DNA of 64,000 nt. It comes from Embleya scabrispora DSM 41855 (lineage in GTDB: Bacteria > Actinomycetota > Actinomycetes > Streptomycetales > Streptomycetaceae). Location: assembly GCF_000372745.1 (NCBI RefSeq), contig NZ_KB889683.1:1-64000 (forward strand). Direction: 5' to 3'. The position numbers and the translations under genes were made by a program. The notes under the pieces were generated by a model that did not search any database, was not told the DNA's origin, and worked only from the letters and a program-made list of their open reading frames with translations. Positions 4,905 to 18,571 of the stretch are shown here, in pieces (position 1 is the stretch's first letter; each line of letters begins with the position of its first letter).

Positions 4905-6335
4905 ATGTCGGAAATCGAGGTCAATTCAGCCGAGTGGATCGGCCGCGACCTGCACCTTGAGTTGTCGGGTACGGGAAGCCGGCGGGCCGTGCTGATCCGC
5001 GCGATCCGTGAGGCGATCCGCACCGGTCGGCTGGCTCCGGACACACCGCTGCCGCCGTACCGGTCGCTCGCGGCCGATCTGGGCATCGCCCGCAACACGG
5101 TCGCCGACGCGTACGCCGAGTTGGTCGCGGAGGGCTGGCTGACGGCGCGTCAGGGCTCCGGTACCCGAGTCGCCCGCCGGGCCGAACCGCTCGCCGCGCC
5201 GCGCCGCCGTGCCCGGACCGGGCTGCCGGCGCGGCCTGCCGGCTCCACGCACAATCTGCGCCAGGGGCAGCCGGACGCGGCGTCCTTCCCGCGTACCGCG
5301 TGGGTCGCGTCCGCCCGCCGGGCGCTGAACGCCGCGCCGAACGAGGCGTTCGGGCCCGGCGATCCGCAGGGACGCCCGGAGTTGCGGGCCGCGCTGACGG
5401 ACTACCTGGCGCGGGCGCGCGGGGTGCGTACCCACCCGGATCGCATCGTGATCTGCTCGGGCTTCGCGCACGCGTTGCGGCTGCTGTTCGCCGGCGTGCT
5501 GCGCGGGCCGGCCGCCGTGGAGTCGTATGGGCTCGCCTTCCACCGCTCGATCCTGGCCGCCGCGTCCGTCCGCACGCTGCCCCTGCGCATCGACGAACAC
5601 GGCGCCGATACCGACGCGTCACCCGTCCTGTCGGGCGCGCGTGTGGCGGTGCTGACCCCGGCGCACCAGTTCCCCACCGGCGGCCCGCTGTCGCCCGAGC
5701 GGCGGGTCGCCGCGCTGGACTGGGCGCGGGCCCAGGGCGGGATCGTGCTGGAGGACGACTACGACGGCGAGTTCCGCTACGACCGGCGTCCGGTGGGCGC
5801 GGTCCAGGGGATGGATCCGGACCGCGTGGTGTACGTGGGCTCGGTCAGCAAGAGCCTGTCCCCGGCGATCCGGCTCGGCTGGATGGTGCTGCCCGAGCAC
5901 CTGGTGGAGGACGTCCTGGCGGTGAAGGGCCTGCGCGAGGCATGGGCCGGCGTCACCGATCAGCTCACCCTCGCCGACTTCATCGAGGGCGGCCACTACG
6001 ACCGGCACATTCGCCGGATGCGCCAGCGTTACCGCGCCCGCCGCGACCACCTGCTCGCCGCGTTGGCCGAAAACGCCCCGCACGTCACCGCGACCGGCAT
6101 CGCCGCCGGCCTGCACGCCGTCCTGCGCCTGCCACCGGGCACCGAGTCCTCCACCGTCAAGGCCGCCACGTGGCAGGGCCTGGCTCTCGACGGCCTCTCC
6201 ACGTTCCGCCACCCGGACGCGACGGGCCCGGCTCCGGACGGGTTGGTGGTCGGCTACGCGACGCCCCCGGACCACTCGTACCCGGCAGCGGTGGAGGCGC
6301 TGTGCCGCTCGCTGCCGCCGGCGGAGGGCGAGTAG
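4905..6335 (+). CDS. MocR/PdxR-type transcriptional regulator (GntR HTH + aminotransferase fold)
   Basis: A 476-residue fusion. Residues about 15-85 form a GntR winged helix (PLPPYRSLAADLGIARNTV, then GWLTARQGSGTRV). The rest is a fold-type I aminotransferase domain that binds pyridoxal phosphate as an effector: LEDDYDGEFRYD holds the Asp that contacts the pyridine ring, and SVSKSLSPAIRLG holds the Schiff-base Lys. MocR proteins usually control themselves and a divergently transcribed target; here that target is the AhpD-like/MFS operon 47 bases away. ATG 4905 follows immediately upstream purine-rich sequence; no shorter start is better. Confidence 0.92.
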   Translation: MSEIEVNSAEWIGRDLHLELSGTGSRRAVLIRAIREAIRTGRLAPDTPLPPYRSLAADLGIARNTVADAYAELVAEGWLTARQGSGTRVARRAEPLAAPRRRARTGLPARPAGSTHNLRQGQPDAASFPRTAWVASARRALNAAPNEAFGPGDPQGRPELRAALTDYLARARGVRTHPDRIVICSGFAHALRLLFAGVLRGPAAVESYGLAFHRSILAAASVRTLPLRIDEHGADTDASPVLSGARVAVLTPAHQFPTGGPLSPERRVAALDWARAQGGIVLEDDYDGEFRYDRRPVGAVQGMDPDRVVYVGSVSKSLSPAIRLGWMVLPEHLVEDVLAVKGLREAWAGVTDQLTLADFIEGGHYDRHIRRMRQRYRARRDHLLAALAENAPHVTATGIAAGLHAVLRLPPGTESSTVKAATWQGLALDGLSTFRHPDATGPAPDGLVVGYATPPDHSYPAAVEALCRSLPPAEGE

Positions 6336-6398
6336 CGAGCCGGTCGTGCGGGCGGTGCCGTCGCCCGTCCGGCGGTCGTGCCGGTACGGCGGCCCGGC

Positions 6399-7412
6399 CT
6401 ACGCCAACGCGTTCACGATCGTGTTGAACGCCGCCGGCAGGCGGTGGGCCGCGGGGACGATCAGGCGGGCCGTGTGCGGGTGGGCCCGGGCGGTGAGGAG
6501 GGTCTCGGTGAGGAGGCGGTGGCGGCGGGACAGGCGGCGCCAGTCGGCCTCGTAGCGCTCGGGGCGGCCCGTGACGAGGGCGGCGACCAGGGCCCGGGCC
6601 GAGGCCAGGGCCAGGGCGATGCCCTCGCCGGTGAGCGCGTCGGTGTAGCCGGCCGCGTCGCCGACCAGCAGGACGCGGCCCGCGACCCGGGTGCGGACCC
6701 GGCGGCGCAGCGGCCCCGCGCCGCGTACGTCGCCGGCCGCCGCGCCCGCCAGCCGGGCCCGCAGCGCGGGAAACGCGGCCAGGTGGTCGTCGTAGGGCCG
6801 CCCGCGCGGCCCGAGCACCGCGACGCCGACCAGGTCCGGTCCCACCGGCGTCACATACGCCTCGCCGTGCGGCGACCAGTACACCTCGACGAAGTCCGTC
6901 CAGGGGGCGACCGCGAAGTGCCGGCGCAGGCCGTACCGCCGGGCTCGGCGATCCGGTCGCGCGGGCCCGAGGGCGGCTCGGATCGGCGAGTGCAGGCCGT
7001 CCGCCGCGACCAGCCAGTGCGCGGTCAGTCCGGCGGCGGCCACCCCGTGTGCGTCCTGCCGCACGTCGCCGACCCGGCCGACCCGGTGCTCGACCCCGAG
7101 CGCCGACGCCCGTTCGTACAACGCCGCGTGCAGCGTGGTGCGTCGTACGCCCAGCCCCGGACCCGCCCGGAACCGGGCCTCGACCGCGTGCCTGGCGTCC
7201 AGGTACCGGATCCCGGCCAACGGCCGTCCGGCGGGCGTGATGCCCAGCCGGGCGAGCGCGGTCACGCCCGCGGGCATCAGCCCCTCGCCGCACGCCTTGT
7301 CCACCGGGGCCGGCCGCGGCTCCACCACGACCACGCGCAGCCCCGCGAGCGCACCGTGGATCGCGGTCGCCAGGCCGGCCGGCCCGCCGCCCGCGACGAG
7401 CAGGTCGATCAC
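6399..7412 (-). CDS. FAD-dependent oxidoreductase, SrsC/AgqC-like (geranylgeranyl reductase family)
   Basis: A 337-residue flavoprotein. The Rossmann motif LVAGGGPAGLA at about 5-15 binds FAD, CGEGLMP follows near residue 46, and the second FAD motif GDAAGYTDALTGEGI lies near 270; the last two are typical of geranylgeranyl-reductase-like enzymes. As last gene of a type III PKS operon it matches SrsC/AgqC, flavin hydroxylases that oxidise an alkylresorcinol ring to a hydroquinone, but a prenyl-chain reductase is also possible. The GTG start at 7412 overlaps the stop of the methyltransferase gene by four bases (GTGA), giving translational coupling. Confidence 0.82.
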   Translation of the reverse strand: MIDLLVAGGGPAGLATAIHGALAGLRVVVVEPRPAPVDKACGEGLMPAGVTALARLGITPAGRPLAGIRYLDARHAVEARFRAGPGLGVRRTTLHAALYERASALGVEHRVGRVGDVRQDAHGVAAAGLTAHWLVAADGLHSPIRAALGPARPDRRARRYGLRRHFAVAPWTDFVEVYWSPHGEAYVTPVGPDLVGVAVLGPRGRPYDDHLAAFPALRARLAGAAAGDVRGAGPLRRRVRTRVAGRVLLVGDAAGYTDALTGEGIALALASARALVAALVTGRPERYEADWRRLSRRHRLLTETLLTARAHPHTARLIVPAAHRLPAAFNTIVNALA

Positions 7413-7927
7413 GCGGTCGCCGTCGACAGCGCGGCCGACTCGCAGCGGATCCGGACCACCATCAGCGCGGTGTTGAGCCCGGTGAACACGAGCGCGGTGA
7501 CCCACGCGCCGTGCACCAGGGGCAGCGCCAGGCCCTCGACCGCGACCGCGAGGTAGTTCGGATGCCGCAGCCGGGTCCACCGGTACGGCCCGCGGCGCAC
7601 CAGCGGCAGCCCCGGCACGACCACCACCTGCGTGTTCCAGTGTGGGCCGAGCGCGGTGACGCACCACCAGCGCAGCGCCTGCGCGGCGAGCACGAGGGCG
7701 ACCATGGTCCATCCGAACCAGGGCGCGAATGGCCGGTCGGCGGACCACACTTCGAGCACGCATGCGGCCAACAGGCCGACGTGCAGCACGACCATCGGCG
7801 GATAGTGCCGCCGTCCGCTGACCACGCCGCCCCGGGCCAGGCTCCAGGCGAGGTTGCGTCGGGCCACCGCCAACTCGGCGACGCGTTCGAGGGCGACCAG
7901 GCCCACCAGTGCGAAATACCAGTACAT
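7409..7927 (-). CDS. Isoprenylcysteine carboxyl methyltransferase-family membrane methyltransferase, SrsB/AgqB-like
   Basis: A 172-residue protein with about four hydrophobic segments and the ICMT-type C-terminal signature GPYRWTRLRHPNYLAV, which binds SAM in this membrane family. In the srs and agq phenolic-lipid pathways the equivalent gene O-methylates the phenolic ring made by the type III PKS. It lies seven bases after the PKS stop and overlaps the FAD enzyme by four bases, so the three form one operon. Role in ring methylation is inferred from this context. Confidence 0.85.
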   Translation of the reverse strand: MYWYFALVGLVALERVAELAVARRNLAWSLARGGVVSGRRHYPPMVVLHVGLLAACVLEVWSADRPFAPWFGWTMVALVLAAQALRWWCVTALGPHWNTQVVVVPGLPLVRRGPYRWTRLRHPNYLAVAVEGLALPLVHGAWVTALVFTGLNTALMVVRIRCESAALSTATA

Positions 7928-7934
7928 CCCCGAC

Positions 7935-8990
7935 CTACCACTCCAAGAGGACGAGCTCGGAGCAGAACCCCGGGCCCATCGCGATCATCAGGCCCGACGT
8001 TCCCGGTTCGGGTCGGGCGGCCATCGTGTCGCGCAGCACGTGCAGTACCGAGGTGGACGACAGGTTTCCCGTCGCGGCCAGCGAACGCCATGTCAGGTCC
8101 AGCGCGCCGGCCGGGAGTTCGAGCGTCTCGGCGACCGCTTCGAGCACCTTGGGCCCTCCCGGGTGGCATACCCACGCGGTGATGTCGGCCGCGGTCAGCT
8201 CGTGTTCGGCGAGGAAGGCTCGCACGTCGCCGCCCAGGTACTCGCGGACCACGTCGGGGACGTCCGAGCCCAGCACGATCCGAAAGCCGGAGCCGCCCAC
8301 GTCCCAGCCCATCACCCGGCCCGAGTCCGGGTACATCCGACCACGACTGGACACCACGCGCGGTCCGTGCCCGGGGCCGGTGCGCGCGTCCCCGCAGGCG
8401 ACCACCGCCGCCGCGCCGTCGCCGAACAGCGCGCCCGCGACCAGGTTGGCCATCGAGGCGTCGGCGCGCTGGAGGGTGAGCGAGCACAACTCGACGGAGA
8501 CCAGCAGCGCGACGTGCTCGGGCCACCCGCGCAGGTAGTCGTGTACCCGGGCGATCCCGGCGGCACCCGCGACGCAGCCCAGGCCGAACACCGGCAGTCG
8601 CTTGACGTCGGGGCGCAGGCCGAGCCGCCCGACCAGGCGGGCGTCGATCGAGGGGACCGCGATTCCGGTCACCGTGGTGAACACGATCAGGTCCACGTCG
8701 CGCGCGCTCAACCCGGCGGCGCCGAGTGCGGACTCGGTCGCCTCGGCGGCGAGTTCGACCGCGACGTCCAGATATGCGTCGTTGGCCGCGCCGAAGTCGT
8801 CCAGCTTGGCGTAGTGGTCCAGGGGTAGGGCCAGGTGGCGGGTGTCCACCCGGGCGCTCGCGTGCAGGCGGTTCAGGACGCGGCGATCGGCGCCCGCCGG
8901 CAGGCACATCGCCGCGAACGTCTCGGTGATCTCGGCTTGCGGGTATCGGTGCGGCGGCAGTGCACCACGGACGGCGGCGATGCGGGTCAC
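7935..8990 (-). CDS. Type III polyketide synthase, alkylresorcinol/phenolic lipid type (SrsA/AgqA-like)
   Basis: A 351-residue chalcone/stilbene synthase family enzyme. The catalytic triad is intact: Cys139 in FGLGCVAGAAG, His276 in WVCHPGGP, Asn309 in AATGNLSSTS. It condenses an acyl starter with malonyl units and cyclises the chain to an aromatic ring. Order and strand relative to the following ICMT-type methyltransferase and FAD enzyme reproduce srsABC of Streptomyces griseus and agqABC of Actinoplanes missouriensis, so an alkylresorcinol-type lipid is the best guess; the first-step acyl chain cannot be read from sequence. GTG 8990 follows a GGGGG site and gives the normal family length; the open frame extends to 9230. 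Confidence 0.9.
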   Translation of the reverse strand: MTRIAAVRGALPPHRYPQAEITETFAAMCLPAGADRRVLNRLHASARVDTRHLALPLDHYAKLDDFGAANDAYLDVAVELAAEATESALGAAGLSARDVDLIVFTTVTGIAVPSIDARLVGRLGLRPDVKRLPVFGLGCVAGAAGIARVHDYLRGWPEHVALLVSVELCSLTLQRADASMANLVAGALFGDGAAAVVACGDARTGPGHGPRVVSSRGRMYPDSGRVMGWDVGGSGFRIVLGSDVPDVVREYLGGDVRAFLAEHELTAADITAWVCHPGGPKVLEAVAETLELPAGALDLTWRSLAATGNLSSTSVLHVLRDTMAARPEPGTSGLMIAMGPGFCSELVLLEW

Positions 8991-9340
8991 GGCGTACCCC
9001 CGACGGGATGAGGGAGAGGGAGCGGAAATGCTGGACGGCGAACGGGGATGGCCAAGGCGGCGGTTGCGCTGAACGGGTGCGGGTTCACACCGGGTGGCCG
9101 AATCACCTGCCGAGGCGACGACGAGGGCGATAGAAGAGCGGGGACGACAAGGTGAGGCGGAAGACGAGGGCGGACGGCGCGGCGGGACGACGGCGGGAGG
9201 CGGAACGGCAGCGATCGCAACCGCCGGCAATCGGGAACGCCGGCACGGTGCCCGGCGGGAACAGCGAACCCACGTTGTTTGCCCGCGCTCGCGGCCCGCA
9301 TGCGCCGGCCCCGCACCGATCTCCCGGAAAGGTCACCCTC
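8991..9340. other. Divergent promoter region of the phenolic-lipid cluster, 350 bases
   Basis: This region separates the type III PKS operon (minus) from the UbiA-like gene (plus) and should contain both promoters. Base composition stays high in GC with purine-rich runs on the plus strand. I see no clear promoter hexamers, palindrome or small gene. Confidence 0.45.
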
Positions 9341-10258
9341 GTGAGCGAAGCCGCGACGTCGAGCCACCCGACCGTGATCACACCCGGGCACCCCCACGAA
9401 CGCGCCCCCGTCCTCGGTCTCCTGCTCGCCTGCCACCCCGGCCCGACCGTCGCGGTCACGGCCCTGGTGACCGCGCTGGCCGCCGCGGCCGGCCGGGACG
9501 CCAAAGGCTGCGCACTGGTCGGCGCGGCGGTGCTCAGCGGCCAGTTGTCGGTCGGGTGGTGCAACGACGCGGTGGACGCCGCCCGCGATCGGGCCGCCGA
9601 ACGGACCGGCAAGCCGGTGGTCGCCGGCCTGGTCGGGCCCGAACGGGTGGCGCTCGCCGCCCGAGCCGCGCTCGTGGCATGCGTACCGCTGTCCTATGCG
9701 TCGGGACCGGCGGCGGGCACCGCGCATGTGGTCGGGGTGGGAGCCGCGTGGGCCTACGACCTCGGGGTCAAGGGCACCGCCTGGTCCTGGGTGCCCTATG
9801 CGGTCGGCTTCGCCGGCCTGCCCGCGTTCGTCGCGTTCGGGCTGCCCGGGCGGCCGGCGCCCACGTGGTGGATCGTCGCCGCCGCCGCGCTGCTGGGCTG
9901 CGGCGCGCACCTGGCCGACGCCCTGCCGGACCTGGATGCCGACCGTACGGGCGGCGTACACGGGCTGCCGCACCGGCTCGGCCCGGCCCGCATTCGCGCA
10001 CTCACCCCGCTGCCGCTGCTCGGCGCCACCGCGCTGCTCGCGTACGGCCGGCCGGACCGGGCCGGCCGGCTCGCCCTGGCCGGCGCCGGCGCCCTGGCCG
10101 GCGCGGGTGCGCTGCTCGGCGGCCGGCGTCCCGGGGTCCCGTTCGTCACCGCGATCGCCGTCGCCGCGATCGACGTGGCCCTGCTGCTGCGCAGAGGTAC
10201 CGGCATCGCGCGACCCGGATCACGTCGGGTCCGACGATCATCACGCCAATGCGCGTAG
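9341..10258 (+). CDS. UbiA-family aromatic prenyltransferase, AgqD-like
   Basis: A 305-residue polytopic membrane protein. Both UbiA metal/diphosphate motifs are present: NDAVDAARD at 75-83 fits NDxxDxxxD, and DALPDLDAD at 193-201 is the second Asp-rich motif. It would transfer an isoprenyl group to an aromatic acceptor at the membrane. Its divergence from the PKS/methyltransferase/flavoenzyme operon matches agqD, which prenylates the hydroquinone in Actinoplanes missouriensis; a menaquinone-type role is the alternative. GTG 9341 follows GGAAAGG at 9326-9332; the longer open frame to 9152 gives a Pro/Arg-rich, unlikely N-terminus. Confidence 0.85.
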   Translation: MSEAATSSHPTVITPGHPHERAPVLGLLLACHPGPTVAVTALVTALAAAAGRDAKGCALVGAAVLSGQLSVGWCNDAVDAARDRAAERTGKPVVAGLVGPERVALAARAALVACVPLSYASGPAAGTAHVVGVGAAWAYDLGVKGTAWSWVPYAVGFAGLPAFVAFGLPGRPAPTWWIVAAAALLGCGAHLADALPDLDADRTGGVHGLPHRLGPARIRALTPLPLLGATALLAYGRPDRAGRLALAGAGALAGAGALLGGRRPGVPFVTAIAVAAIDVALLLRRGTGIARPGSRRVRRSSRQCA

Positions 10259-12454: not shown

Positions 12455-13257
12455 CGACCAACTTCGACAAGCCCGCGCCCAAGGCGGCCGATCCCGGGCG
12501 ACCGATGGTCAAGGCCGAGGACGTCTGCAAGTCGTTCGGCGCGGTGGAGGTGCTCAAGGGCATCGACCTGGAGGTCGGATCCGGCGAGGTCATGTGCATC
12601 GTCGGCCCCTCCGGCTCCGGCAAGTCCACCTTCCTGCGCTGCATCAACCACCTGGAGAAGGTCAACGCCGGGCGGCTGTGGGTGGACGGCGAACTCGTCG
12701 GCTACCGGGAGAAGGAGGGCAAGCTCTACGAACTCCGGGACAGCGAGGTCGCGCTCAAGCGGCGCGACATCGGCATGGTGTTCCAGCGCTTCAACCTCTT
12801 CCCGCACATGACCGCCGCGGGCAACATCATGGAGGCGCCCACCCAGGTCAAGGGCATAAGCAGGTCCGACGCCCGGGAGCGCGCCCACCAGCTCCTGGCC
12901 CGGGTCGGCCTGGCCGACAAGGCGAACGCCTACCCCGCCCAGCTCTCCGGCGGCCAGCAGCAGCGGGTGGCCATCGCCCGGGCGCTGGCCATGGACCCCA
13001 AGCTGATGTTGTTCGACGAGCCGACCTCCGCGTTGGACCCCGAACTGGTCGGCGAGGTCCTGGACGTGATGCGCGGCCTCGCCGAGGACGGCATGACGAT
13101 GATCGTGGTCACCCACGAGATGGGCTTCGCCCGCGAGGTCGGCGACTCGCTGGTGTTCATGGACGACGGACTCGTCGTCGAGGCCGGCCTGCCGCGCGAG
13201 GTGCTGACCAACCCGCAACACGAGCGCACGAAGGCGTTCCTGTCCAAGGTGCTGTGA
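12451..13257 (+). CDS. Amino-acid ABC transporter ATP-binding protein (GlnQ/HisP type)
   Basis: A 268-residue ATPase that powers import by the preceding permease. Walker [10 protein letters not shown] is at 52-60, the Q-loop in [12 protein letters not shown], the signature LSGGQQQR near 168, Walker [13 protein letters not shown] near 190 and the H-loop THEMGFA near 217. A short charged insertion (about 83-97) precedes the Q-loop, as in many actinobacterial relatives. The ATG overlaps the permease stop (ATGA), so the two subunits are coupled. A hairpin follows 24 bases after the stop and closes the three-gene operon. Confidence 0.95.
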
Positions 13258-14890: not shown

Positions 14891-16000
14891 CTAGAGGGCC
14901 TTCCGCAGGATCGACGGCCCGCAGTCCACTCGACCAAGCGGCCCGTCGTGCCATGTCCATTGGCCATCGACCGTCACGGTGAGGCCGTGTTCTTCGCGTG
15001 GGGGCTCACCCCGCGCCCGCCACGCTTGGTAGGCGGCCTCGATCTCCCGCCACAGATCGCGCGGGCCGCCCTCGTTCACCTCGAACGAGGGGGCGTCCGG
15101 TACGTAGTCGACGGACGCCCAGGACTGTCCGTCGGCGTACCACGTGGTGAACTCCCCGGCGTGCGCGCCCGACCCGAAGAACGTGCGTTGCTCGACGTCG
15201 GGCAGCCGCAGCCCGATCGCGAAATCCGCGTGCTCCTCCTGACGGGGACGCGGATCCGTCGTCATGTGGCGGACCCTGCCCGCGCTCGGGTCCGCGATCA
15301 CGTCGCCCACGAAGCGCCGGGTCTCGAACCTCGGACGCTGCGACCGGGCCCACATGAAGTTGACGTTCCCCACGAACCGGCCCGACGCCGTGCCGTCGGC
15401 CGCGACGACCAGGCGCAGGAGTCCGGAGTTGTGGAAGGCCGTGCCCCAGGGGGTGAGGATCACCCCTTTGGGCCGGACCTGCTCCACCCACGCGTAGGGC
15501 ACGTTCCGTACCGCCATGGTGGCGATGAGCCGGTGGTAGGGGGCGCCTTCCCGGTAGCCCAGCAACCCGTCGCCGACGATCAGGCTCGGCTTCAAGTCGG
15601 CGTCATGCAGGGACTTTTGCGCCTGGATCGCAACGAGGGGATCCACTTCGATCGAGGTCACCCGGCCGGCCGTGAGCGCGGTGGCCAACAGCGCCGTGGA
15701 CCATCCGGTGCCGGTACCGATTTCGAGGATGTCGTGACTCGGGTCGACGTCGAGTTGTTCGAGCATGTGCCGCACGAGGGAGGGTTGCGACGACGACGAC
15801 GTCGGGATCAGGCTCCCGCCCGGCATGCCGTCATCCATCTGGGTGACAAGCGGGATGTCGGCCGCCACGGCCTCCGCCCACGCCTCGGGGTCGGTGTCGC
15901 GGTCGATCCGGACGTCGTCATTCCCCCACACCGCCGCCGGGACGTACGAGCGCCGGGGCGTGTCCGCGAACACGCCGTCCCAGTCGACCAAGGCACTCAC
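14891..16000 (-). CDS. PIMT-like O-methyltransferase, RiPP-associated (candidate imiditide maturase)
   Basis: A 369-residue SAM methyltransferase related to protein L-isoaspartyl methyltransferase. PIMT features are visible: SSSSQPSLVRHMLEQL at about 68-83, SAM motif I ILEIGTGTGWSTALL at 91-105, and IATMAVRNVPYAW followed by GVILTPWGT in place of the usual VPVG loop. Housekeeping PIMTs are about 210-230 residues; this one has an extra C-terminal region of roughly 140 residues, as in methyltransferases that modify Asp in lasso peptides, graspetides, FxLD lanthipeptides and imiditides. Its GTG at 16000 overlaps the stop of a 41-codon, highly charged peptide gene (GTGA), with AAGGAGAGGG inside that gene as ribosome site. 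I infer that it esterifies an Asp of this peptide, leading to an aspartimide. No ATP-grasp, LanB or lasso gene is nearby. Confidence 0.82.
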   Translation of the reverse strand: MSALVDWDGVFADTPRRSYVPAAVWGNDDVRIDRDTDPEAWAEAVAADIPLVTQMDDGMPGGSLIPTSSSSQPSLVRHMLEQLDVDPSHDILEIGTGTGWSTALLATALTAGRVTSIEVDPLVAIQAQKSLHDADLKPSLIVGDGLLGYREGAPYHRLIATMAVRNVPYAWVEQVRPKGVILTPWGTAFHNSGLLRLVVAADGTASGRFVGNVNFMWARSQRPRFETRRFVGDVIADPSAGRVRHMTTDPRPRQEEHADFAIGLRLPDVEQRTFFGSGAHAGEFTTWYADGQSWASVDYVPDAPSFEVNEGGPRDLWREIEAAYQAWRARGEPPREEHGLTVTVDGQWTWHDGPLGRVDCGPSILRKAL

Positions 16001-16122
16001 TTGTCCCTCTCCTTGTCGCGGTCCTTGTCCTCCGGCGGCACGGGCCTGTCCCACTGGCCATCGCGCTGTCGTTGGGGGGTCTTGGCGTCGCCGTCCTTGT
16101 CGTCCTTGGCGTGATTCCCCAT
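15997..16122 (-). CDS. Small highly charged peptide, candidate RiPP precursor for the PIMT-like enzyme
   Basis: A 41-residue peptide with 23 charged residues (11 basic, 12 acidic), no Cys and no hydrophobic stretch. It contains two Asp-Gly pairs (residues 10-11 and 21-22), the classic context for aspartimide formation; the second lies in QRDGQWDRP. The tail alternates Lys/Arg with Asp/Glu. The ATG at 16122 has GGGAGG seven bases upstream. An in-frame ATG at 16191, overlapping the stop of the preceding gene (ATGA) and also preceded by AGGAGG, would give 64 residues; third-position GC favours the shorter form. The stop overlaps the methyltransferase start (GTGA). Imiditide precursors are known to bind their methyltransferase through charge pairing, which fits; function here is inference. 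Confidence 0.7.
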   Translation of the reverse strand: MGNHAKDDKDGDAKTPQRQRDGQWDRPVPPEDKDRDKERDK

Positions 16123-16187
16123 CGTCGTACCTCCCGAGTTTTTGTAGGTCGAGCCGGTGTCGGTCGGTGGTGGCATCGAATTCGCCG

Positions 16188-16640
16188 TCATCGCTCCTCC
16201 TCGTCGAGCAGGAAAGGAGGTTCCGACCAATCGGCCACCGCGCCCAACGGGCAGCCGACTCGCTCCAGGTCGGACAACAATGCGAACCACTCGGGGCCGA
16301 GCGGCGGTTGAACCGTCGCCAACATGCCCTTGTCCACGGCGCACAACTCCGTGAGCGTGCCGTCCGGCCGGAGGGTCGCGTCTTCCACGCCGACGTATCT
16401 CACGCTCCGGTACAGAATCGGCGGAGGCGGCCGAAGAATGACCAAGTCCCGCACCCAGCAGGCGAATTCGATTCCGCTGCGCAGCCGTAGGTGAACCTGC
16501 CGCCCGCGCACGTCCATGAGCACACCCTCTCGGCCCGAATAGGCGTCGCGACACCACGCGTGCCGGTAGCGCTCGAAGAACGCGTGGCCCAAGTCGAGAT
16601 CCTCCTGCGTACTCCCGGATGCCCGCTGTCGAGTGGTCAT
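16188..16640 (-). CDS. Conserved-looking hypothetical protein in the PIMT operon
   Basis: A 150-residue soluble protein that I do not recognise. It has an acidic C-terminus (LLDEEER), several aromatic-rich beta-like stretches (VHLRLRSGIEFACWVRDLVIL) and two Cys in the middle third, plus GCPLGAVADW near the end. The ATG at 16640 overlaps the stop of the upstream 78-codon gene, and its own stop overlaps the alternative ATG (16191) of the charged peptide, so it is part of a tightly coupled four-gene transcript ending in the PIMT-like enzyme. A peptide-recognition or immunity role is possible but unsupported. Confidence 0.7.
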   Translation of the reverse strand: MTTRQRASGSTQEDLDLGHAFFERYRHAWCRDAYSGREGVLMDVRGRQVHLRLRSGIEFACWVRDLVILRPPPPILYRSVRYVGVEDATLRPDGTLTELCAVDKGMLATVQPPLGPEWFALLSDLERVGCPLGAVADWSEPPFLLDEEER

Positions 16641-16873
16641 CGGGCGTTCCGCCCACCCGAGCGCAGCCCACGGAACCGCACCGCCAACCGACGCGAACGT
16701 AGCCACGCGCGCCGAAACGGCACCGGAGACGGGGCGAACGAGGGAGTCTCGGCGCCCCGCCCACCGACCCACTCTCGGACCAGCAAGCACAACCGCTCGT
16801 CCTGCCCGTCGCGCTCCCCGCCGCTCGGCATGCGCACCGAACCGCGTTGGGTCCATCCGATTTGATGTGTCAC
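16637..16873 (-). CDS. Small basic hypothetical protein, first gene of the PIMT operon
   Basis: A 78-residue Arg-rich protein (tail RRAWLRSRRLAVRFRGLR) of unknown function. The GTG at 16873 has GGGAG about seven bases upstream; an ATG at 16927 would add 18 residues. Its stop overlaps the ATG of the next gene (ATGA), the main argument that it is real. It starts 113 bases after the end of the XRE regulator gene on the same strand. Confidence 0.5.
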   Translation of the reverse strand: MTHQIGWTQRGSVRMPSGGERDGQDERLCLLVREWVGGRGAETPSFAPSPVPFRRAWLRSRRLAVRFRGLRSGGRNAR

Positions 16874-16986: not shown

Positions 16987-18204
16987 CTACCCGGTGCCGA
17001 TCTGCAAGCGGTCGGCGAGGGCGAGGATCGGGGCCGAACGGCGGCGCTCGCGGGAGGCGAGGTCTGCGACTACTCGGCGGGATGTGGCGTGGTAGCGCAT
17101 CCATTCGGGGGCGGTGTGTTCGGCCTTGAGCATGGCGCGGGTTGCCCGGTCGTCGTTTGCGAGGTCGATGTGGGCGAGTGCGCGGTCGACGTAGTACCGC
17201 GCCTGCCACGTGGGCGGCAGGCTGGTCAGGTCGGTGATGCGCCGTGCTTCGGCCAACGCCTGTTCGGGTCGGTCCATTTCGACGAAGGCGTTGACCGTGG
17301 CGACACCGGCATTGGTGGGGCCGAACGGGGTGGCGTAGTCGATGCGGTCGGTGCCGATCCGGGCAGCGGCGGCGTTGGCAAGGCGCAGGAGTTCGGCGGC
17401 GGTGTCCTTGCGCTCCGCGCGTACGGCGGCCGAGGCGGCGCGTAGCAGCAGGATGCCCCACAGGGCCACGTCGATCAGCGGTGTCTTCGTCCACGACGGC
17501 TCGATCTTCTCCGCGGTTGCCTCGGCCACCCGCTGTGCGTCGTCTATCCGGCCCTGCTTGCTGAAGATCCACGACAGCGTCGACATGCCCATGACTTCGA
17601 GTCGGGGGTCATCGGAGTGCCGGGCCGCGATCCCGGCTCGCTCCATCGCCGTATACGCGGCGTCCTCCTTGCCGAACGCGGCCAGAGTCGTCGCCGCGAC
17701 CTGGTACGCCTCCGCCAGGATGGCGAACGAGGCGGCGCGGTCGGCGCCGGAGTGTTCGCGCGTCGCGGAGCGAGCGTCCGAGATGAGGCGCGGCAATACG
17801 GCGGCGATCTCCGACAACTTCCCTTCGCGCCGGATCACCTCCGTCGACCTCAGCGACGCCCGGAGATCCAGGACGGACGGCGATTCCCCGTCGGCGACCT
17901 CCATCTCGTCTTCGATCAACTCGGAGACCGGAGTCACGGCCCGCCGGAGCGCCAGCAGGCTCGGTAGGGGATCCCGGTGCGCCGCGCCCTCGAACGTGGT
18001 CGGCTGCCCGATCAGGATCGACGTTTCCACGTCGAGCGCCCTCGCGAGCGCGTTGAGCGTCGCGAGCCGGGCCGTGAGTCGCTGGTTCTGTTCCAGCTTG
18101 CGAACGACATCGACGGAGACTCCCGCAACGGCAGCGAGCGACTCCTGAGTGTGGTCCCTCCGCAGGCGCAACCGCGCGATGCGATCCCCAATGCTGTCTT
18201 GCAT
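16987..18204 (-). CDS. XRE-family transcriptional regulator with TPR-like C-terminal domain
   Basis: A 405-residue regulator. An XRE/Cro-type helix-turn-helix covers about residues 4-60 (DHTQESLAAVAGVSVDVVRKLEQ), and the remainder is an all-helical TPR-like domain rich in AAxA and leucine patterns. This is the common actinobacterial architecture paired with small DUF397 proteins, and a DUF397 gene is indeed divergent, 170 bases away. Such pairs often sit beside specialised-metabolite genes and may sense a peptide or small ligand. It lies directly upstream of the PIMT operon on the same strand and could control it. ATG 18204 follows GGGAG. Confidence 0.88.
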   Translation of the reverse strand: MQDSIGDRIARLRLRRDHTQESLAAVAGVSVDVVRKLEQNQRLTARLATLNALARALDVETSILIGQPTTFEGAAHRDPLPSLLALRRAVTPVSELIEDEMEVADGESPSVLDLRASLRSTEVIRREGKLSEIAAVLPRLISDARSATREHSGADRAASFAILAEAYQVAATTLAAFGKEDAAYTAMERAGIAARHSDDPRLEVMGMSTLSWIFSKQGRIDDAQRVAEATAEKIEPSWTKTPLIDVALWGILLLRAASAAVRAERKDTAAELLRLANAAAARIGTDRIDYATPFGPTNAGVATVNAFVEMDRPEQALAEARRITDLTSLPPTWQARYYVDRALAHIDLANDDRATRAMLKAEHTAPEWMRYHATSRRVVADLASRERRRSAPILALADRLQIGTG

Positions 18205-18373
18205 GGTTCGGACTCCCGGCGAGGTAGGCGCTGACCCCACGGTACGCCCGCAGACCGGCCGAGAATCGCGGGAACCGACCACCGGCTCACGTCATACGAT
18301 CGGCTACGCGCCTATGCCTTTCCCCGAAAGAGTCGGCAGCGATGATCCGGGCAACCATCAAGGAGTTGCAACC

Positions 18374-18571
18374 ATGCACCGAACCCAAGACGCAGACGTC
18401 ACCACGTGGCGCAAGAGCTCGTACAGCAACGGAGATCAAGGCAACTGCGTCGAGGTCCGCGACGATCGCCCGGGCATCGTCCCGGTACGTGACTCGAAGG
18501 AGCCGAGCGTGGGTCAACTCCTCATCGGCGTGACCTCATGGACAGCGCTGACCGACGCCCTCCAAGGCTGA
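18374..18571 (+). CDS. DUF397 domain protein
   Basis: A 65-residue DUF397 protein (PF04149). The family signature is complete: TWRKSSYSNGDQGNCVEV, then VPVRDSKEP and a C-terminal SWTALTDAL. DUF397 proteins are partners of XRE regulators such as the divergent gene here and modulate them, for example in BldB-like or morphology-linked circuits; the exact role of this one is unknown. ATG 18374 has AAGGAG nine bases upstream. Confidence 0.92.
   Translation: MHRTQDADVTTWRKSSYSNGDQGNCVEVRDDRPGIVPVRDSKEPSVGQLLIGVTSWTALTDALQG

Follow-up and report, generated by a model that had tools for sequence, protein, structure and literature searches.

We analyzed a 64,000-nucleotide stretch of Embleya scabrispora DSM 41855 (contig NZ_KB889683.1, positions 1 to 64,000; hereafter, the window), in which two genes on the minus strand form an overlapping, probably translationally coupled pair. 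The upstream gene (15997–16122) encodes a 41-residue peptide, MGNHAKDDKDGDAKTPQRQRDGQWDRPVPPEDKDRDKERDK, and the downstream gene (14891–16000) encodes a 369-residue PIMT-family aspartyl O-methyltransferase (PAMT) with a GTG start. The stop codon of the peptide gene (15999–15997) and the start codon of the PAMT gene (16000–15998) share the bases GTGA, a 4-base overlap, and a GGGAGG ribosome-binding site (16130–16135, minus strand) lies 7 nt 5′ of the peptide’s ATG. With 12 Asp/Glu and 11 Lys/Arg, the peptide has 23 charged residues; it contains Asp-Gly (DG) pairs at residues 10–11 and 21–22 and no Cys. A model-generated prediction made earlier from the letters of this DNA (the original prediction) had described such a peptide, its four-base overlap with a PIMT-like methyltransferase, and a long C-terminal extension of that enzyme, and it had assigned the pair to the imiditides, a class of ribosomally synthesized and posttranslationally modified peptides (RiPPs). 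The gene anatomy proved to be exactly as described, and the evidence below supports the class as well. We regard the locus, with a probability of about 0.86, as an imiditide (type I pamtide) system made up of a linear 41-residue precursor and a dedicated PAMT. As such, it joins an already described class as a new member with a precursor family of its own.

Conservation of the precursor was assessed at the seven loci encoding PAMTs 67–73% identical to that of the window. Six of them (L009 and L040–L044) carry a homologous peptide directly upstream of the PAMT with the same GTGA overlap, which answers the question, raised by the original prediction, of whether the small open reading frame (ORF) is kept in relatives. 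Codons 2–23 of the seven peptides (window plus six) align gap free, and H4, D10, G11, D12, K14, T15, P16, R18, D21, and G22 are invariant. Across these 22 codons, 10, 9, and 16 columns vary at codon positions 1, 2, and 3, respectively, and pN/pS was below 1 in 21 of 21 peptide pairs (range 0.04–0.79). The precursor is under purifying selection in close relatives, and because the homologous peptide recurs at six of seven loci with pN/pS below 1 throughout, the pairing of peptide and PAMT is not a chance arrangement. Judged by eye, the precursor’s 5′ flank and the ribosome-binding site within it are similar to those of the relatives for ∼40 bases, beyond which the window carries the ORF of a 150-residue protein in place of the relatives’ sequence. 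A 64-residue form of the precursor may start at an ATG at 16191, overlapping the stop of the 150-residue ORF; only the end of this possible in-frame extension (16123–16191, minus strand) resembles the relatives, as their 5′ flank, with a likeness that reaches ∼4–15 codons into it, and the reading frame of several relatives is likewise open upstream. We favor the 41-residue form because of its ribosome-binding site. Read in the correct frame, the precursor matched no NCBIfam family and gave a single row against PHROGs (E 0.14), taken as chance. More widely, His occurs within the first 8 residues of 41 of the 48 precursors that we listed, typically as MG[KREDNQ]H, a count partly biased by selection; it may be a leader motif that type I precursors commonly carry.

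The PAMT itself is of the kind found with RiPPs. Pfam PCMT (PF01135) matches residues 68–216 at 89.2 bits (cut-off 20.3), and ∼150 further residues follow this domain; this C-terminal region, which the original prediction had proposed to search, is of the RiPP-PAMT kind and is not confined to housekeeping enzymes. The protein scored 81 bits against TIGR00080, the canonical PIMT family (cut-off 159), and 289.8 bits against TIGR04188, the graspetide-associated PIMT homologues, below a 380-bit cut-off that is itself no clean divide, as two paralogues labeled with an ATP-grasp neighbor score 417 (L017) and 323 bits (L018). AlphaFold modeling from 48 aligned PAMTs (pLDDT 92) predicted, in elements from residue 242 onward, a C-terminal part of beta, alpha, four beta, alpha, and then two strands. 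The beta-alpha-4beta-alpha order is that described for RiPP PAMTs and the Thermotoga maritima PIMT (PMC10787088). The best Protein Data Bank (PDB) match of the model was indeed this T. maritima enzyme (1dl5; E 1.5e-18, 353–357 columns), the sole PIMT in the match list aligned over nearly its full length, although the rmsd was ∼8 with the two domains placed differently. The motif WxxxGxP, described as conserved in imiditide, lasso, and graspetide PIMTs (PMC13001092), is present as WRARGEP (W327, G331, and P333); among the 113 PAMT-like proteins scanned, 87 have the motif, as do 39 of the 51 that were peptide labeled.

We then placed the enzyme in a tree of 109 PAMTs (SH-aLRT support only), where it falls within an 8-row set with 100% support. 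The 67-row region around this set holds 45 of the 50 peptide-labeled rows and only 2 of the 25 ATP-grasp-labeled rows, the other 23 of which lie in a separate region. The ATP-grasp labels derive from a motif regular expression, and at least two are doubtful (L058 and L083_2), their loci also carrying a peptide. The closest named PAMT record, at 71%, is from Embleya sp. NBC_00888. In the 11.39-Mb genome of the strain itself, 22 PAMT-matching rows correspond to 20 distinct places after pieces of one gene are joined. An imiditide-like peptide stands directly upstream at 8 of these 20, window included; among the other 12, several could not be assessed, being short fragments or lying at contig ends.

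We assign the locus to the imiditides because of the fold predicted for the C-terminal domain, the WxxxGxP motif, the conserved short Asp-rich precursor, the lack of any other RiPP enzyme nearby, and the position in the tree. The original prediction had noted that ATP-grasp, lasso cyclase, and LanB genes are missing from the surroundings, and the neighbors tested between 10316 and 21332 indeed include no ATP-grasp, lanthipeptide, or lasso enzyme. The published imiditide systems NmaA–NmaM (Nonomuraea maritima) and SpaA–SpaM (Streptomyces sparsogenes) have the same two-gene unit, with a linear, Cys-free, Asp-rich precursor of ∼45 residues, a PIMT homologue with a C-terminal domain and WxxxGxP, and no other RiPP enzyme nearby. 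In contrast to NmaA and SpaA, compared here by their description, the window precursor belongs to a family of the form MGxH...DGDxKTPxRxxDGQ, with a net charge of −1 and lower Gly/Pro content, and the window pair also differs from both systems in standing behind a regulator with a helix–turn–helix (HTH) and a tetratricopeptide repeat (TPR) domain and behind genes for a 78- and a 150-residue protein. The graspetide-associated homologues (graspimiditides; TIGR04188) have the enzyme superfamily and the C-terminal domain in common with the window PAMT, which differs in having no ATP-grasp ligase among the neighbors tested, in its tree region, and in its score below the family cut-off. Cysimiditides (type II pamtides) are likewise two-gene units with a PAMT, but their precursors bear two CxxCxGxG motifs, whereas that of the window has no Cys.

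By analogy with NmaM and SpaM, we infer that the PAMT would bind the charged precursor through its C-terminal domain, with recognition by charge, and would methylate one precursor Asp with S-adenosylmethionine. The Asp methyl ester would then close spontaneously on the next backbone amide to yield an aspartimide, which could in turn hydrolyze to isoAsp or Asp. Asp21 appears to be the likeliest modified residue, with Asp10 as second choice, because remote precursors share the context of Asp21, a DG with (K/R)P(I/V)P after it. With a spacing of one to six residues, this context is found in 9 of the 48 listed precursors, four in the window’s close set and five on other PAMT branches. Thus, DGQWDRPVPP of the window returns as DGKWDKPIPP (L089), DGNQPGRPIPP (L014), DGHKPEKPVPP (L049), and DGRQPGRPIPP (L011) and, in a later survey, as DGKWDKPVPP (L183). 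DG pairs number 73 in the 48 precursors compared with 42 ± 5.5 in shuffles.

Several observations weigh against the imiditide assignment or against parts of it. Upstream of the L010 PAMT, 70% identical to that of the window, no peptide was detectable. Gly and Pro account for 7 of the 41 residues of the window peptide compared with a published class average of ∼34% together, and its net charge of −1 contrasts with the strong positive charges described for imiditides in a review (PMC13001092). Five of the 50 peptide-labeled PAMTs fall outside the main tree region and apart from both regions. Knowledge of the expected composition shaped our peptide filters, and the 48 listed precursors were picked by eye; for distant precursors, composition and DG counts are therefore biased upward. 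As for the choice of Asp21 over Asp10, neither DG site varies within the close family.

Three other explanations were weighed. The enzyme could serve in the repair of protein isoAsp as a housekeeping-type PIMT, the small ORF being there by chance or for translational coupling only. Its catalytic domain does match canonical PIMTs, but the C-terminal domain, WxxxGxP, and the score of barely half the TIGR00080 cut-off do not fit such a role, and neither do a conserved peptide with pN/pS below 1 or imiditide-like peptides at 8 of 20 PAMT-like places in the same genome, which together make this explanation extremely improbable. Alternatively, the PAMT could act on another protein, with the peptide serving as a small regulatory or antitoxin-like protein. 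PAMTs beside FHA proteins have been proposed to modify those proteins (PMC10787088), and XRE/DUF397 pairs have been proposed as toxin–antitoxin systems (PMC6262351). We consider this reading improbable as well: the chain is Asp rich and of low complexity, its DG motifs are invariant, and in both published pairs, SpaA–SpaM and NmaA–NmaM, the precursor is modified by its neighbor.

The remaining alternative extends the system rather than replacing it. Upstream of the precursor and on the same strand lie the ORFs of a 78-residue basic protein (16637–16873) and of a 150-residue protein of unknown function (16188–16640), with a 4-base overlap between them, and the four genes are probably cotranscribed. 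The original prediction had put forward the two proteins as possible new components, and they could bind or present the precursor within a single biosynthetic unit. Strand, 4-base overlaps, and the probable common transcript agree with a four-gene unit, but the distribution of the 150-residue protein does not: its gene is found at none of the six other close peptide-bearing loci (8.6–14 kb read), six of the seven other loci of the 150-residue protein have no PAMT within the 12–18 kb read, and a search of 200 family genomes (E up to 1e-6) recovered the protein from all four genomes of the genus and from none of the remaining 196, a range far narrower than that of imiditides. A four-gene unit is thus very unlikely, and we favor the two-gene imiditide pair.

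Neither the 78- nor the 150-residue protein matched a family in Pfam, NCBIfam, or PHROGs. Eight loci of the 150-residue protein are known, four in the strain’s own genome and four spread over three further genomes of the genus, and at all eight, a DUF397 gene and an XRE regulator stand beside it, although DUF397 is found at just 33 places in the whole of the strain’s genome. The regulator matched a DUF5753-type profile at seven of these loci and is of the HTH-TPR type in the window. Only in the window does the 150-residue gene adjoin an imiditide pair; the one other locus with a PAMT (L037) has an ATP-grasp-labeled enzyme. Two of the other seven loci also have the 78-residue protein. At L028/L036 and at L029/L037, the match was reported to contain a stop, and two of the eight copies may therefore have decayed. 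We rejected the 150-residue protein as an imiditide partner, given that it is XRE/DUF397 linked everywhere and imiditide linked only here. The two proteins are probably not imiditide parts and belong instead to a separable XRE/DUF397-linked module, contrary to the original prediction.

This module has a parallel in Streptomyces. BldB paralogues are presumably DUF397 proteins. In Streptomyces venezuelae, abaA paralogues or iosA occupy the slot next to a whiJ–bldB paralogue pair, and overexpressed abaA6 or iosA disturbs sporulation (PMC10294661). The 150-residue gene and its relatives adjoin XRE/DUF397 genes just as abaA paralogues and iosA adjoin whiJ and bldB paralogues, and the 78- and 150-residue genes are, by analogy, best read as a module of the AbaA/IosA kind to which the imiditide pair was joined. 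Unlike those loci, the window has a 150-residue protein without a family match and an HTH-TPR regulator, and an imiditide pair follows. At L036 (7333–9906), a relative of the 150-residue protein follows an HATPase gene (PF13581), which is itself divergent from an XRE-DUF5753/DUF397 pair, as in AbaA-type loci.

The window regulator (16987–18204, minus strand) is read in the direction of the operon and is predicted to consist of an XRE-type HTH followed by an all-helical TPR solenoid (pLDDT 87.5); a DUF397 gene (18371–18571, plus strand) is divergent from it. Control of the imiditide pair by this regulator and the module of the 78- and 150-residue proteins may be proposed from their position and from the modest statistical association given below. 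Foldseek ranked PlcR with PapR first (E 1.2e-5, TM 0.35) and ComR second (E 2.7e-4), and VIA-align gave Rap, AimR, and NprR rows at Z 15.5–18.9, among them Rap 4gyo (Z 18.9, rmsd 4.5, 264 aligned residues), AimR 5zw6 (Z 18.0, rmsd 4.3, 241 aligned), and NprR 5dbk (Z 17.4, rmsd 4.1, 266 aligned). Eukaryotic TPR proteins match equally well or better (Z up to 21.5). The modeled architecture, an N-terminal HTH with a C-terminal TPR domain, is thus RRNPP-like, a likeness of fold that shows no function. The peptide gene lies ∼0.9 kb from this regulator, and its product has no signal sequence by eye.

We surveyed such regulators around PAMT genes more widely, with several loci per genome, thirteen Embleya loci included, and the window and phages left out. 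The profiles were self-built from few seeds (XRE, 3; DUF397, 4 and then iterated; HTH-TPR, 12), and DUF5753 was confirmed with Pfam for two regulators. Of 65 peptide-linked PAMTs, 30 were dropped for short flanks, along with two duplicate rows. Among the 35 retained, 15 had an XRE, DUF397, or HTH-TPR gene within 3 kb compared with 4 in the 3.5- to 6.5-kb ring (discordant 14 to 3, p = 0.013). XRE/DUF397 alone (11 vs. 4 of 35, p = 0.09) and HTH-TPR alone (4 vs. 0 of 35, p = 0.125) were not significant. In a first, smaller sample, the difference was not significant for 15 peptide-linked PAMTs (discordant 7 vs. 2, p = 0.18) and was clear for all 49 PAMTs (discordant 19 vs. 4, p = 0.003). PAMTs without a detected peptide had a regulator within 3 kb in 18 of 47 cases compared with 5 of 47 in the outer ring, and we therefore rejected the idea that the regulators mark imiditides only. 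XRE/DUF397 or HTH-TPR regulators are thus more frequent close to PAMT genes than in the outer control ring, a modest effect. Within the window’s close set, L040, L155, and L156 have no such regulator. The L010 PAMT (∼5612–6716, minus strand), a possible orphan, adjoins an XRE/DUF397 pair. Co-occurrence with regulators has already been noted for graspetide groups 11 and 13 (PMC13097080). The words regulator and phage are absent from PMC10787088 and PMC13001092, and the literature searched, which excluded Cao 2023 (PMC10947588), contained no statement on the regulator neighborhood or phage carriage of imiditides.

Phages are known to carry RiPP genes. The window PAMT matches eight records from five Streptomyces venezuelae phages at ∼40% identity, and the four of these phages that we read, Alderaan, Ididsumtinwong, Austintatious, and PapayaSalad, all Austintatiousvirus, carry complete imiditide-like cassettes (∼5700–7110 of loci L038, L039, L063, and L064); a literature search on the genus name found no paper. 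In each of the four, a 47- to 48-residue peptide beginning MSGKHGGG ends eight bases before the PAMT, and the endolysin gene and the repressor region stand on either side of the cassette, with an integrase shown in two of the four. Upstream are two small ORFs and a divergent regulator that differs between phages in the same slot: DUF397 plus XRE in Ididsumtinwong and, by profile, in Austintatious; a 407-residue HTH protein related to the window regulator in PapayaSalad (27% over 401 residues, E 5e-13); and an XRE protein unmatched by our self-built profiles in Alderaan. Inspection of the sequences raised the idea of an SH3-like domain common to the 71- to 75-residue phage proteins and the 150-residue protein, for which we make no claim. 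In Streptomyces sp. CBMA152 (L069), only a 1.3-kb peptide–PAMT stretch of the 7.5 kb searched matches the phages (72% DNA identity), as expected for a moving cassette. Among 19 IMG/VR contigs with a PAMT, visual inspection showed a type I-like peptide in nine and a CxxCxGxG peptide in one. At least two of those nine belong to this phage group, and host DNA may form part of such contigs.

The biological role of imiditides is described as unknown (PMC13001092). It is its setting, with several pairs per genome, phage carriage, and regulatory neighbors, that lifts the locus above the routine, and these features suggest, at low probability, a role in a cellular or lysogeny decision. A more specific and doubtful possibility is that, rather than antibiotics, imiditides are outputs or signals of XRE/DUF397 or HTH-TPR switch loci, in which the passage from Asp through aspartimide to isoAsp would serve as a clock read by, or acting on, a developmental or lysogeny decision in an arbitrium-like or IosA/AbaA-like manner. 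We raise it because WhiJ/BldB-type or RRNPP-fold regulators adjoin imiditide pairs in bacterial genomes as well as in Streptomyces phages that carry integrase or repressor genes. XRE/DUF397 types have already been tied to Streptomyces sporulation (PMC10294661) and antibiotic production (PMC6262351 and PMC10364602). With this locus comes a compact precursor family whose candidate site is clear, and the survey provides testable places to look for imiditide function: a genome with at least eight pairs, the phage cassettes, and the repeated regulator neighborhood. The S. venezuelae phages, with a complete cassette and alternative regulators in one slot, are one place to seek that function.

The neighbors between 10316 and 21332 encode a solute-binding protein, a permease, a cyclopropane synthase, HTH and DUF397 proteins, an acetyltransferase, a TetR regulator, and an acyl-CoA dehydrogenase, and an ORF at ∼12487–13257 was named an ABC ATPase from its translation. 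At L009, a radical SAM gene (7856–9846, minus strand; PF04055 at 51 bits, SPASM just below cut-off) and a second PAMT (6064 to ∼7257, minus strand) lie directly upstream of an imiditide pair in the same genome. Radical SAM–PAMT clusters have been reported without a known substrate (PMC10787088), and the imiditide precursor at L009 is a candidate for one. Precursors with CxxCxGxG (type II) adjoin PAMTs at L202 (∼8033) and L169 (∼7770). That of L202 starts with MGKH as type I precursors do, hinting at an N-terminal recognition motif that the two types may share.

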